A DNA stretch of 64,000 nt from an uncultured Lachnospira sp. (GTDB lineage: Bacteria; Bacillota; Clostridia; Lachnospirales; Lachnospiraceae), in assembly GCA_934359185.1 (NCBI GenBank), contig CAKRLE010000013.1, positions 7,301 to 71,300 of the forward strand, read 5' to 3'. The first letter of the stretch is position 1. Each line of letters opens with the position of its first letter. Shown here in pieces: positions 5,721 through 61,574 of this stretch. Both the position numbers and the translations under genes were made by a program. The notes under the pieces are model-generated. The model did no database searches and had not been told where the DNA came from. It worked only from the letters and a program-made list of their open reading frames with translations.

Positions 5721-6627
5721 CTTCCTTCACCTCCATCTGCTTATCAAATTCATATCCTAACGCTTCCATCTCATATGTGAATACCTCTTCTAATGTAAGT
5801 GGCAACACATCTAATACAATAGGATTCATAGCTCTGAATCTTTCAATCATCTGCTCTCTGTCACCATTAACTATCATGTTGGCAACTGAACCCATCTGAC
5901 GGTATCTTGTTATATTCATATCCCAGAATTTACTCTCATTAAATTCATGGTCAAATGCAACCTGAACCTTAAACTGTGTAGTCTTCATCTCCAATACATC
6001 ACTATCAAGCACAAGTCCGCCCTTGTGAAGCAGTGCAAGATGATCGCATATATCCTCAAGCTCTCTCAAAGAATGTGATGTAACTATAATTGTTGAATTC
6101 TTCTCTGCCACATCATCACATATAAGCTTCTTTACAAGATTTCTCATAACCGGGTCAAGTCCGTCAAATGTCTCATCAAAGAACATATACTTTGCTCTTG
6201 TTGAAAGTGTGAGAATAATCGCCGCCTGTCTTTTCATTCCCTTAGAGAAATTCGCTATATTCTTATCAGGGTCAAGCTTGAATATTCCTGTAAGCTCCTT
6301 AAATCTTTCCATATCAAAGCTGTCAATAAGCCTGGCATACATCTTCGCCATCTTATTCATGCTCGCACCTGGAAGAAAATATAAATCATCTGCAACAAAT
6401 GCTATATTACTTTTAGCCACTGGATTCTCATATACTGGTTCATCATCAATATACGCCAGCCCCGAATCAGGCTTATATATTCCGGCAAGTACTCTTAAAA
6501 ATGTAGATTTACCAGCACCATTTGATCCTACAAGACCATATACACAGCCATCCAGGATATTGCAGCTGACTTCATCCAGCGCCACAAATGAATCAAACTT
6601 CTTAGTTATGCCCGCCGCTCTAATCAT
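5713..6627 (-). CDS. ABC transporter ATP-binding protein (YtrB-like)
   Basis: This is the ATPase subunit that powers the adjacent permease. Walker A is GSNGAGKS (about residue 34-41), the signature is degenerate (FSKGMKRQ, typical of ABC-2 exporters) and Walker B runs into FFDETFDGLDP. The switch His follows in VTSHSLRELE. The last 90 residues form the C-terminal extension common in this family. It overlaps the upstream GntR gene by 8 nt and the downstream permease by 8 nt, giving a tight three-gene operon. Confidence 0.9.
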   Translation of the reverse strand: MIRAAGITKKFDSFVALDEVSCNILDGCVYGLVGSNGAGKSTFLRVLAGIYKPDSGLAYIDDEPVYENPVAKSNIAFVADDLYFLPGASMNKMAKMYARLIDSFDMERFKELTGIFKLDPDKNIANFSKGMKRQAAIILTLSTRAKYMFFDETFDGLDPVMRNLVKKLICDDVAEKNSTIIVTSHSLRELEDICDHLALLHKGGLVLDSDVLEMKTTQFKVQVAFDHEFNESKFWDMNITRYRQMGSVANMIVNGDREQMIERFRAMNPIVLDVLPLTLEEVFTYEMEALGYEFDKQMEVKEDE

Positions 6628-7030
6628 TATCTTTCACCTCTGCTCCATTATATTTTTTATTAAAACATCCATCAACTATATCAATCAGCTCCTGCTTCGA
6701 TACGCCAGCTATAACAAGCCCTGAAACCATCTCCCTGAACTCTGACAGCTTATCCTTGGCTAATACACTTGCTTTCTCCACAGCATCATCAGCAATAAAC
6801 GCTCCTTTACCTGGCACCGTGATTATAACCCCTCTTCTTTCAAGCTCCGAATATGCTTTCTGAATTGTATTCGGGTTAATCGCAAGCTGCATAGAAAGCC
6901 CTCTCACTGACGGCATCTTAGTTCCCGAAGCCATAATCTTCATAAGAACCTTCTGCTCAACCTGATTAATAACCTGTTCATAAACCGGCACTCGAGACAT
7001 CAAGTCAATTACAAACATGTTATCACTCAT
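6620..7030 (-). CDS. GntR family transcriptional regulator, YtrA subfamily
   Basis: The protein is a short (136-residue) regulator with an N-terminal winged helix-turn-helix (residues 12-78, containing MPSVRGLSMQLAINPNTIQKAYSELE in two blocks) and a small C-terminal dimerisation helix pair. This is the YtrA architecture, without a ligand-binding domain. It is the first gene of the operon and presumably represses it by binding the palindrome at 7060-7086 just downstream of the promoter. The C-terminus runs into the ATPase gene by 8 nt. The family assignment is firm; the inducing signal is unknown. Confidence 0.9.
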   Translation of the reverse strand: MSDNMFVIDLMSRVPVYEQVINQVEQKVLMKIMASGTKMPSVRGLSMQLAINPNTIQKAYSELERRGVIITVPGKGAFIADDAVEKASVLAKDKLSEFREMVSGLVIAGVSKQELIDIVDGCFNKKYNGAEVKDND

Positions 7031-7124: not shown

Positions 7125-7173
7125 GAGGGAATTAAAAATTTTTATTACATAAAGCAAATCTCAAACCAGACGA

Positions 7174-7189
7174 GGTTTCGTTAGAAACC
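7174..7189. other. Small perfect hairpin abutting the long inverted repeat
   Basis: GGTTTC-GTTA-GAAACC forms a 6-bp stem with a 4-nt loop and ends exactly one base before the long inverted repeat at 7190. No T-run follows on either strand, so it is not an obvious terminator. Confidence 0.4.
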
Positions 7190-7508
7190 ATTAATTGCGT
7201 ATTTGCGCGCCCTGTGTGCGAACAGCCCCACCGCCTCACAGTCTGCAGCTTCCCTGTCTGCGTATGCTTACTTCACCTGGCGTTCTGTCGTGTTGGTCTT
7301 AGGCTGGTGTTAGACAAATGCCAATCAGAATGCTAAACGTCCAAGCGAAGCGCGTTTTTAGCATTCTGATTAAACAGGCATTGTCGTGCCAGCCTTAGAG
7401 CAACTAGACAGGTTAGACCCCGTGAAGTAAGCATACGCAGACAGGGAAGCTGCAGACTGTGAGGCGGTGGGGCTGTTTGCGCACAGAGCGCGCAAATGCG
7501 CAATTAAT
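7190..7508. repeat. 319-bp long-hairpin element with 87-nt inverted arms
   Basis: The outer arms 7190-7276 and 7422-7508 are inverted copies matching at 83 of 87 positions. Inside, 7297-7307 pairs with 7389-7399 (one mismatch), and 7323-7337 (AATCAGAATGCTAAA) pairs perfectly with 7357-7371, leaving a 19-nt tip. The arms are GC-rich (48 of 87 G or C) in an AT-rich setting. Both ends are ATTAAT, which could be a 6-bp target duplication or part of the palindrome. The right ATTAAT supplies the TAA stop of the gene at 7507. The element lies in the only large gap between the GntR operon and that gene. It has no credible ORF. It could be a MITE-like non-autonomous element, a structured RNA or a very large terminator; I cannot name a known family. 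Confidence 0.85.
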
Positions 7509-8832
7509 CTATCGTGGTGGCATTAGGATATATCCTCTTCATCCTCGCATCATCATAATGCACATCCATCCACTCCTGCCAGCTCTCTGCCGCAGGCACT
7601 TCCTTTCCACGCTCATCATATCTAATAAGTGCCATGCACGAAACCACAATATTACAACACATAAATGCAACAAGTGCCCATGTCAGCACCTTTCCAAACT
7701 TCAGAGGAATCTTTTCAATCCACGAAGAAACCGTAGGGTACAACAATTTAAACCATACAACAGCAGCTATTCCCCAGAAGAAACAGTACAGCAGATTAAT
7801 CCTTCCTCCAAGATTATACTTAAATCCACTGTAATCCCAGAAAACCTTTCCAAATACTATCTCTGTAAATACAGAGCACAGATATTCATATGCACCACCA
7901 AGTAATGTTCCTACCCAGAATAAGAACCAGTCACTCTTATCCTTGTATCTATAAAGAAGTGCTGTTACAATCGCAATCGCAAGTCCCCACACAATACTGA
8001 ATGGTCCCCATACAACACTGCTTCTGCTCATCCACACGCCTGCCGTTATGCGGCAGAATATAGTCTCTGTTATATCACCTAAAAATGCTCCTATAAAAAA
8101 CAGCATGATTATTTTATAAATATCACATCCACTTGCAAATACATTTTTATCTCTCTCCTGTACTTTGACAGCAGATGCCTCTGGATATGCCCTGTCTATT
8201 CTATGGGTTACTTTGTTATAAATCCAGTTGCCAAGCCTTTTACTGAATTTATCTATATTGTCATTGGCATTCTCTAGCCACTCCGCATTCTTTTGCTGTC
8301 CTGCATTTCTTAAATTCTTTTTTTCTTTTCCCTTAACCAGCACAAATGATGCTGCAATATCAACTGAAAGAAGTGCAATAAGTGCTATAAGTATAATGTG
8401 CATGACAAGTTTTGGCATATTGGAATATACGCTAAGAAACATATCATTGCCATATCTTACAGCCAGAAATCCAAGTGAACCTTTCACTAACGATACTGCA
8501 GCACAGATATATCCGTCAAAATTCCATTTGAAACTGCCATAATCCCACCACCGCTCATGGAAATATCTCTCAATCAGATGTCCAGCACCCCACTCAATAA
8601 CTGCCGCATATATAACAGCAAATACAAACAGCGCAATCCCAGTCATTCCCTTAAGACCTATTGACATAAGGATTGCACCGATTCCATATAAAACACAGAA
8701 TGGTCCATTCACAAGACCTCTGTTGACAAATCTTTTGTGTTTCGTTGCCCCTACACACACTTCATAAATCCATCCAAGAAATGAATATATGAAAAAGAGC
8801 CACAATAACTGATATACACTATAATTACCCAT
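7504..8832 (-). CDS. CmpB-family membrane protein (putative ABC transporter permease, PF06541 type)
   Basis: This is a 442-residue multi-pass protein with two copies of the same module. Copy one begins LWLFFIYSFLGWIYE and continues to WWDYG..KWNFDGYIC. Copy two begins KIIMLFFIGAFLGDITE and continues to FWDYSGFKYNLGGRIN. The repeated W-D-Y-x-G-x-K-(W/Y)-N pattern and the FLG(W/D) turn are typical of the family labelled ABC-transporter type IV or CmpB, whose function is not established. A hydrophilic link lies at about residues 165-235, and the last 45 residues are charged and cytoplasmic. It has its own promoter (8864-8892). The stop codon lies in the end of the long inverted repeat, so that element forms the immediate 3' untranslated region. 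Confidence 0.8.
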   Translation of the reverse strand: MGNYSVYQLLWLFFIYSFLGWIYEVCVGATKHKRFVNRGLVNGPFCVLYGIGAILMSIGLKGMTGIALFVFAVIYAAVIEWGAGHLIERYFHERWWDYGSFKWNFDGYICAAVSLVKGSLGFLAVRYGNDMFLSVYSNMPKLVMHIILIALIALLSVDIAASFVLVKGKEKKNLRNAGQQKNAEWLENANDNIDKFSKRLGNWIYNKVTHRIDRAYPEASAVKVQERDKNVFASGCDIYKIIMLFFIGAFLGDITETIFCRITAGVWMSRSSVVWGPFSIVWGLAIAIVTALLYRYKDKSDWFLFWVGTLLGGAYEYLCSVFTEIVFGKVFWDYSGFKYNLGGRINLLYCFFWGIAAVVWFKLLYPTVSSWIEKIPLKFGKVLTWALVAFMCCNIVVSCMALIRYDERGKEVPAAESWQEWMDVHYDDARMKRIYPNATTID

Positions 8833-15297: not shown

Positions 15298-15324
15298 ATG
15301 AATTGTATAATGAATGGAGAATAA
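15298..15324 (+). CDS. Eight-codon leader peptide overlapping the next start
   Basis: ATG at 15298 lies 9 nt after a perfect AAGGAG and encodes MNCIMNGE before TAA. The long frame starts at 15314 inside it, in another register, with no ribosome site of its own. The mini-ORF probably couples translation to the next gene by termination and re-initiation, limiting its expression. Confidence 0.4.
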   Translation: MNCIMNGE

Positions 15325-16381
15325 CAACAAGGATTACTACTCTGATGCTATAACCCAGATTCGCAGCAATCCACAGATGTATGAGCAGTATATAAAATTA
15401 TCATCAAATCCTTCGTGGAAAGAACGATTTGATGATTTTCTAAGAGGAACAAAGACACTTCCTCTTCTATATGATCCATTTTTCAAGGCTATATTCAATG
15501 CAGATATCCACAGAGAACGACTTTCAGAATTAATCAGTGCCATTCTTGGACAAGAAGTGAGTGTTGTTGAGGTAATACCTAACGAGGACAGTACTTACAT
15601 GGGCGCACTTATTATTATGGATATCGTGGTAAGAATGTCTGACGGAAGTCTTGCCAATATTGAAGTCCAGAAGGTTCCATATCTGTTCCCGGCTGAACGA
15701 ATATCGTGTTACTCGTCTGATCTGCTTATGAGGCAGTACACCAGACTTAAGAACGCAAGTCTTGCTAATGGAGAAAATGTATTTTCTTATAAGAATCTGC
15801 GCCATGTCCATACTATCATCTTCTATGAAAGGAGCAGCGAGAAGCTTATAAGCAGCCTTGATGAAAAATTTTACTTTCATGTCGGAAAAACCATATTTAA
15901 CACAGGCATCAATGTCGAACTTTTGCAGGACTTTCATCTTATAAACCTTGACACTTTCATCAAATACAGATATTCTGATATTATCAATGGTGATACCACA
16001 GTGACACGATATGATTATGATGAGTCTGTATACAAGAATGAACCAAGCGATGATATGAAGCAGAAAAGGCTTATGTATCTTATGCTCCTGACCACAGATA
16101 ATGTATGCGATATGGACAGACTTCTTAAGTTATACCCTCAGCTTGCTGGTATCATAAATGACATTAACGAATATATCAGCAGACCTTGGGAGGTGTTGAA
16201 TATGTTTTCAGAAGCATTACGGATATTGGATAAGAATTCAATGGATTTACTTATAGATGAGATGAAGCAGGAAGTTGATAAGGCTCATGCGGAATTAGAA
16301 GCAGAAAGAGAAAATTCTCAGGCTGAGATTGCCCGATTAAAAGCCGAGATTGCAGAACTAAAAAAGCAATCAAATTCTTGA
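15314..16381 (+). CDS. PD-(D/E)XK nuclease family transposase-like protein (Rpn/PDDEXK_2 type)
   Basis: This 355-residue protein belongs to the family annotated as putative transposase or recombination-promoting nuclease. The early block LLYDPFFKAIFN, then D103 (IMDIVV), followed 14 residues later by E117-V-Q-K120, form the nuclease core. The last 60 residues are a charged coiled coil (EQ- and K-rich, with heptads such as EIARLKAEIAELKK). The gene has its own promoter and a strong terminator and is one of the few plus-strand genes here. Flanking terminal repeats were not evident. Such genes occur in many near-identical copies in Lachnospiraceae. The frame is intact, so it may be functional. 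No SD precedes ATG 15314; see the leader peptide. Confidence 0.85.
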   Translation: MENNNKDYYSDAITQIRSNPQMYEQYIKLSSNPSWKERFDDFLRGTKTLPLLYDPFFKAIFNADIHRERLSELISAILGQEVSVVEVIPNEDSTYMGALIIMDIVVRMSDGSLANIEVQKVPYLFPAERISCYSSDLLMRQYTRLKNASLANGENVFSYKNLRHVHTIIFYERSSEKLISSLDEKFYFHVGKTIFNTGINVELLQDFHLINLDTFIKYRYSDIINGDTTVTRYDYDESVYKNEPSDDMKQKRLMYLMLLTTDNVCDMDRLLKLYPQLAGIINDINEYISRPWEVLNMFSEALRILDKNSMDLLIDEMKQEVDKAHAELEAERENSQAEIARLKAEIAELKKQSNS

Positions 16382-61485: not shown

Positions 61486-61513
61486 TATATAATTTTCACA
61501 CAATAAAATCTAA

Positions 61514-61568
61514 GATAATAGTAAAGGCAGGAGAATTTAATTCCAAATCTCCTGCCTTTACTATTATC
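61514..61568. terminator. Bidirectional terminator with a 21-bp perfect stem
   Basis: The arms 61514-61534 and 61548-61568 are exact complements (core AAAGGCAGGAGA / TCTCCTGCCTTT) around a 13-nt loop. It lies between convergent arcC and the small membrane-protein gene and can serve both. Confidence 0.85.
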
Positions 61569-61574
61569 TCTTCT

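Follow-up and report, generated by a model that had tools for sequence, protein, structure and literature searches.

Within the window (the whole 64-kb stretch of DNA that was analysed), a long palindromic element, hereafter called a rod, lies between a gene for a PF06541 (CmpB-type) membrane protein and a gene for a GntR-family regulator (Table 1). Its two arms of 87 nt each are 95% complementary and 145 nt apart, and the spacer between them is also palindromic, with a perfect inner stem of 15 bp (7323–7337/7357–7371) whose halves are separated by 19 nt. Alignment of the 319 bp with their own reverse complement gave 80% over the whole length, and the predicted RNA fold of positions 7150–7550 reaches -264 kcal/mol, compared with a mean of -122 for shuffled sequences (z -25.6; 0 of 100 shuffles as low). 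The inverted arms, the nested stem with its 19-nt tip and the folding of all 319 bp into a single rod are thus as the original prediction described them, and the same holds for the GC-richness relative to the surroundings (52% for the whole element, 39% for the window) and for the absence of a convincing ORF, since the longest stop-free run covers 168 of the 319 nt. Of the 17 inverted repeats in a listing for the window, none is longer than this rod, and neither that listing nor self-alignment revealed a second copy within the 64 kb. Two other features of the window may be mentioned here: a gene at 15314–16381 whose product has a transposase domain of the PD-(D/E)XK nuclease family (PF12784), and a 25-bp inverted repeat with arms 7 nt apart at 61513–61569, which is possibly a two-way terminator.

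The right arm covers the last 5 bases of the PF06541 gene, a point absent from the original prediction, and the rod therefore starts at the stop codon, while the promoter region of the GntR-ABC operon lies on its other side. Between the rod and that promoter region, a short inverted repeat GGTTTC-GTTA-GAAACC is found at 7174–7189, inside the stretch that lacks a clear counterpart in relatives. An invertible promoter was considered and rejected: promoter prediction identified no promoter-like site between the arms, and the spacer is itself palindromic.

Table 1. Features of the hairpin locus (positions in the window)
Feature	Position	Strand	Remarks
GntR-family regulator gene	6620–7030	-	rod's other flank; promoter-like site 7124–7096
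Stretch of ~60 nt without clear counterpart in two relatives	7131–7189		by eye
Whole rod element	7190–7508	+	sense strand of the core; both flanking genes lie antisense to it; oriented with models R1 and R2
Left (5') arm	7190–7276	+	self-complementarity
Stretch aligned full length to core model R1	7265–7436	+	37.0 bits (unfiltered); other strand best 10.7
CTTAG	7298–7302	+	opposite CTTAG 7394–7398 with T-T mismatch; R1 cores similar; by eye
Best match to tip model R2 in window 1–30000	7316–7379	+	20.1 bits (unfiltered), next 12.3
Tip motif ACGTCCAAGCGAAGCGCGTTTTT, divergent CTGTYTGAGCGNAGCGAGTTTTG	7337–7359	+	6/23 mismatches
One-sided bulge AAACA	7372–7376	+	about the position of the AAATAA bulge in R1 cores; by eye
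CTTAG, 3' partner of 7298–7302	7394–7398	+	by eye
Right (3') arm	7422–7508	+	5-base overlap with 3' end of cmpB-like gene
PF06541 (CmpB-type) membrane protein gene	7504–8832	-	stop codon adjoins the rod

Loci of relatives were collected by a contig scan that used an alignment of the neighbouring protein, in which 80 of at least 473 confirmed loci were kept. Among the matches listed, two loci from uncultured Eubacterium MAGs (L001 and L002) preserve the order of the PF06541 gene followed by the GntR gene and have the promoter region in common with the window (81 and 85% identity), and at the place of the rod they contain merely a few tens of AT-rich bases. The comparison of empty sites suggested in the original prediction thus yields two syntenic relatives without the rod, which implies either a gain in the window's lineage or a loss in theirs. 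The sequence ATTAAT that flanks the rod on both sides is part of the arms, and the relatives are too diverged there for a comparison of target duplications. The genome that contains L001 (G001) and a second genome (G002) are the nearest of those examined; PriA identity is 75% in G001, with 64% as the next best value among 397 genomes of the family.

Searches with the hairpin DNA itself returned no match at E ≤ 0.001 in the 397 family genomes, nor did the hairpin part of the query in the 22 genomes of the genus group; plasmids and phages gave merely short matches at chance level, and viral contigs contained no exact arm or inner-stem pattern. At a relaxed limit (E 0.1), short matches appeared in 33 of the 397 family genomes (best E 0.0012), including G186, which was later found to carry the same tip variant as the window rod. 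Rfam searches of the window, six loci of G001/G002 and six further loci produced no family match, with tRNAs alone reaching the gathering score. When all the collected loci were screened for long palindromes, others came to light, with unrelated arms.

In about 0.8 Mb of G001 we found some twenty palindromes of 146–651 nt, the longest of which covers two adjacent rods. Most of them have a core of about 150 nt in common (it is missing from L142 11366–11511, L155 18004–18180 and L160 8598–8759), and some contain the core sequence twice per arm; the arms are mostly dissimilar between copies, with a subgroup that shares 27–40 nt adjoining the core. A core model (R1), built from 18 rod cores of G001 and G002, identified 41 copies in G001 and 15 in G002 (sense strand, rows above 130 bits) and none in the remaining 20 of the genus group's 22 genomes. 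G001, with a genome of ~2.5 Mb, therefore bears at least 41 such palindromes; their median length is 335 nt and their GC content 45% versus 38.5%. The existence of these 41 and 15 similar rods, together with the two rod-free syntenic relatives, speaks for the reading of the hairpin as an element, which the original prediction had put forward. A search for the origin of the arms outside rods (16 arms; ~0.8 Mb of G001 covered) gave a single weak match of 32 nt (E 0.02). A C-rich stretch such as CAATCCCCAACTACCCC precedes many G001 rods (in the last 20 nt, C 28% versus G 16%), and the same genome contains two short palindromes of equal length and score 8 kb apart (L173 9448–9533 and 17614–17699).

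The rods occupy a characteristic position behind genes. According to simple ORF calls, made without annotation, and with rod ends taken from self-alignment or folding, 37 of the 41 G001 cores are followed downstream by an antisense gene, and for 32 of 41 the downstream gene ends no more than 80 nt away, the gap being between -20 and +40 nt in 29 of the 37 antisense cases; random intergenic points in rod-free loci give chance values of 0.50 for antisense and 0.19–0.38 for an end within 80 nt. Rods fetched by their tip (see below) behave similarly, with an antisense gene in 24 of the 28 for which a downstream gene was called and an end within 100 nt in 18 (duplicates removed). Convergent neighbours can bear one rod each, in opposite orientation (L142, L165 and, at 10 kb, L145). 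The window rod obeys this rule: its core lies on the plus strand, the PF06541 gene on the minus strand, and the gap is -5.

Outside G001 and G002 it is the tip that identifies the class. With stricter filters, R1 found matches in three of the 397 family genomes (G001, G102 and G134), and the apex CTGTYTGAGC-n-GCGAGTTT is nearly all that the new rods have in common with those of G001. This tip, composed of CTGTYTGAGC, a short variable stem-loop and GCGAGTTT, is conserved across genera: the pattern is present in 25 of 290 Lachnospiraceae genomes, with up to 35 occurrences per genome (reversed control: 0). Of 31 distinct tip occurrences, 30 stand at the apex of a rod with 25 or more pairs; the 31 are the 33 listed minus L365, which repeats two L344 rods, they include one G001 rod (L353) that is also in the 41-rod placement set, and the fetched loci cover part of the places matched by the pattern. 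Both rods of L043 carry the tip motif. In IMG/VR viral contigs, 13 of 36 tip occurrences have at least 20 of 40 flanking bases paired across the motif, and the other 23 have at most 15. In an alignment of 40 of 41 reference tips (A4), themselves a chosen part of the tips collected, the ten pairs of the tip-adjacent stem are formed in 79% of cells, compared with 40% after shuffling and 36–50% with slid structures, while the counts of varying pairs and of pair types were no different from shuffles. A GNA triloop occurs in 13 of 41 distinct tip strings, which is suggestive only of a DNA mini-hairpin of the GNA-triloop type at the tip.

The window rod very probably belongs to this tip-motif class. 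It is a near-perfect rod of 319 nt with 132 pairs enclosing the tip, which is present at the apex (7337–7359) in a divergent form, and it adjoins the stop codon of the PF06541 gene (gap -5) with the tip strand antisense to it. With filters off, R1 aligned it over its full length at 37.0 bits on the plus strand, compared with at best 10.7 bits on the minus strand, and other rods tried reached at most 24.4 bits; the rods of L043 do not provide clean controls for R1, since they carry the tip. A tip model (R2), built from 40 tips with the window excluded, ranked the rod tip first in positions 1–30000 of the 64 kb (filters off, 20.1 bits, E-value 0.0025, which is rough; next 12.3 bits). The strand chosen by both models is the one predicted by the gene rule. 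With default filters R1 and R2 both miss the window rod, and R2 also misses the G186 rod L098, which has the same tip variant; for G001 members with a deviating apex R2 gave 15–24 bits and missed one of six cores. At 6/23 mismatches the window apex is the best of ~128,000 positions in the window, but random windows reach equal motif scores (best 5–7 mismatches), so that the bare motif is no better than random and its position at the rod apex alone is telling. A part of the window tip, GTCCAAGCGAAGCGCGTTT, occurs exactly at two places in G186, both of them in rods: in one (L368) a called gene ends antisense inside the edge of the rod, and the other is L367.

The orthologous rods of G001 and G002 reveal how members of the class change. 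At 14 of the 15 G002 rod loci one flank matches the G001 DNA searched, and eight pairs were compared, with flank identities of ~94–99.7% in seven and of 94% and 82% in L211/L283. In L197/L230 the rods are 98.6% identical. At five sites (L201/L232, L209/L141, L211/L283, L213/L261 and L223/L259) the arms differ on both sides and each rod still folds on itself, with 79–84% identity where the sequences can be aligned; the agreement of the outer arms varies and is clearest in L209/L141 (38–39 nt). At the remaining two (L207/L254 and L215/L155) the G001 arms are kept and the core is mostly or wholly gone, as if a deletion had occurred between short direct repeats. In the latter pair, L155 18004–18180 (without the core) and L215 982–1377 (with the core) represent the same locus with flanks 99% identical, and the core of L155 was apparently removed by deletion between GCGT repeats. 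Across seven of these rod pairs, the base pairs retained with both partners altered number 0, 11, 0, 8, 8, 8 and 10, and the broken ones 1, 17, 6, 18, 15, 16 and 15; these counts do not settle the coupling of the arms, because the alignments are poor in the replaced parts, and the self-folding of each rod despite differing arms is the better evidence for it. The original prediction had named arms that diverge freely in relatives as an argument against an element or RNA; this applies in part, as orthologous arms indeed change fast, yet each rod continues to fold on itself. No empty site was found for any R1 rod between G001 and G002, and hence transposition was not caught in the act. In one of the above pairs (L261 3450–3894, orthologue of L213 1375–1811), the ends of the rod reach 47 and 41 nt into a pair of convergent genes at their called 3' ends, so that one coding end is the inverted copy of the other.

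We suggest, with a probability of roughly 0.58, that the window rod belongs, as a divergent member, to a class of giant non-coding hairpins that are dispersed in genomes, and in which a factor reads the tip and template switching rewrites the arms. A trans-acting factor would recognise the tip as a DNA hairpin and place or copy the element at the 3' ends of genes; one arm would be copied onto the other by template switching during replication, which would keep the arms complementary by producing paired changes in one step; and the tip and inner loops would escape this copying because they are under selection. According to PMC8794818, a single template-switching event is able to make or mend a stem. 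A rod at the 3' end of a gene may, as a guess, stop or insulate transcription, and we regard a role of the rods at gene ends as terminators or insulators as a plausible prediction. More tentatively, the rods could be regarded as a widespread kind of selfish or domesticated DNA hairpin with a tip of ~20 nt, read as a folded single strand by a factor that would install and rewrite giant palindromes antisense behind individual genes.

The paired changes in the core could also be ascribed to a structured non-coding RNA or 3'-UTR element, in which the core strand or a read-through mRNA would fold and be bound or processed, with selection for pairing; we consider this unlikely, even though the covariation is strong. 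In an alignment of the core (A3: 18 of 21 pattern matches, after removal of three spurious ones), 96.5% of cells are paired and 27 of 63 core pairs have changed on both sides; the both-side-changed cells number 101 versus 36 in shuffles (0 of 500 shuffles as high), and with slid structures the paired fraction drops to 36–44%. This signal does not count as independent evidence, because the copies are related, but it agrees with an RNA, as do the pairing of the tip-adjacent stem, three G-U-rich core columns on one strand, the higher fold stability of the core strand relative to its complement (19 of 22 rods in one set, 26 of 38 in another), and the retention of the tip motif across genera. On the other hand, G-U pairs counted over whole rods have no strand bias (120 versus 128 in 22 rods; 165 versus 150 in the 38 listed, which include three repeats, namely L365 twice and L301 = L341), no Rfam match was obtained, very closely related genomes differ by replaced arms and lost cores, and according to PMC8794818 paired changes arise by template switching as well. 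Since selection on an RNA should favour G-U pairs on one strand, we infer arm-to-arm template switching from their equal numbers on both. Of the large structured RNA envisaged in the original prediction, the compensated changes are well borne out, and the expected strand bias and a match in Rfam are missing. Covariation by itself, it should be cautioned, is no proof of RNA.

A transposon origin in the form of a MITE, i.e. a short non-autonomous element with conserved terminal inverted repeats on which an IS transposase acts, is very unlikely. The copies are dispersed and the window site is rod-free in two relatives, as a MITE would require, and a separate rod family in G418 (5 pattern matches) has some ends that are MITE-like by eye. 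Nonetheless, the conserved part of the rods is the core and tip, not the termini; by eye the outer ends differ from copy to copy, and neither a shared end sequence nor a target duplication of constant form was seen; and Y1_Tnp, the transposase family searched, was not found in two carriers. The original prediction of a MITE-like element with the same ends, moved by a transposase, hence finds no support. Neither Y1 transposase nor reverse transcriptase (Y1_Tnp, RVT_1) was found in G001 and G002, although these MAGs may be incomplete, and Y1 transposase is present in 13 of the genus group's 22 genomes. The G418 rods are multicopy, with loops TTTTTAATGGAA..GGAATGTT that agree and stems that differ, and one of them (L127) has the ends GTTACAGTTCACA/TGTGAACAGTAAC, MITE-like by eye. 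As a key to the window rod, the G418 rods (L126, L127, L129 and L130) were rejected, as the exact tip is absent and they have no consistent placement at 3' ends. The least credible alternative is an oversized intrinsic terminator grown by template switching without a mobile step: the position directly after stop codons would suit it, and perfect stems can form in one template-switching event (PMC8794818), but the presence of a conserved core of 150 nt at 41 sites of a single genome requires dispersal, no terminator is called at the window rod (the sequence after it on the minus strand is GGTTTCTAACG), and by base composition the 5' edges of rods lack the A-rich tract expected if the strand of the gene had a T-tract.

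In bacteria, long palindromes with near-perfect arms are generally regarded as unstable. If the reading of the rods as selfish or domesticated hairpins is true, there are bacteria that bear and renew tens of 200–600-bp palindromes per genome, contrary to this view. With at least 41 rods in a genome of ~2.5 Mb, the upkeep and rewriting of palindromes by arm-to-arm template switching becomes testable, and so does the question of what puts hairpins behind genes when neither a Y1 transposase nor a reverse transcriptase is found; the conserved tip offers a handle for finding its reader protein.

Such a class appears to have been without description so far: none was found in the open-licence PMC literature, which cannot prove novelty. 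Integron attC sites are hairpins of conserved structure and variable sequence at the 3' ends of genes, in fixed orientation, with a variable tip and conserved base ends. The rods resemble them in placement and structure, but the conservation is reversed, as it is the tip that the rods keep. Near-perfect arms with paired changes, like those of the rods, are described for palindromes maintained by template switching (PMC8794818) and for those of nematomorph mitochondria (PMC6649704), and in the accessible parts of these papers we found no dispersed bacterial family with a common tip. Palindromic candidate RNAs from the human microbiome, most of them predicted terminators, are likewise palindromic and come from human-associated bacteria, but the four described in the accessible part of PMC8040213 are 80–132 bp long, belong mostly or wholly to Bacteroidetes, and are presented there without a conserved tip combined with variable arms. 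A further likeness is to REPs, BIMEs and REPINs. REPs are palindromic, extragenic and present in many copies, which mostly lie behind genes, in the gaps between ORFs that converge or follow in tandem; the unit of 20–40 bp is tagged by GTAG or CGTC on one side (PMC3733652). The rods are also palindromic, extragenic, multicopy and downstream of genes, but compared with REPs as portrayed there they are 113–623 nt long, conserve the tip, vary in the arms and are mostly antisense to the neighbouring gene. In contrast to the 20–40 nt GTAG/CGTC unit expected of a REPIN from the same source, the window rod has the foot ATTAATTGCG and a length of 319 nt, and RAYT (Y1 transposase) was detected in 0 of the 2 richest rod carriers, which as MAGs may be incomplete. 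Although the rods thus lack defining features of REPs/REPINs and of MITEs, their place and shape lead us to include them in the broad kind of repetitive extragenic palindromes.
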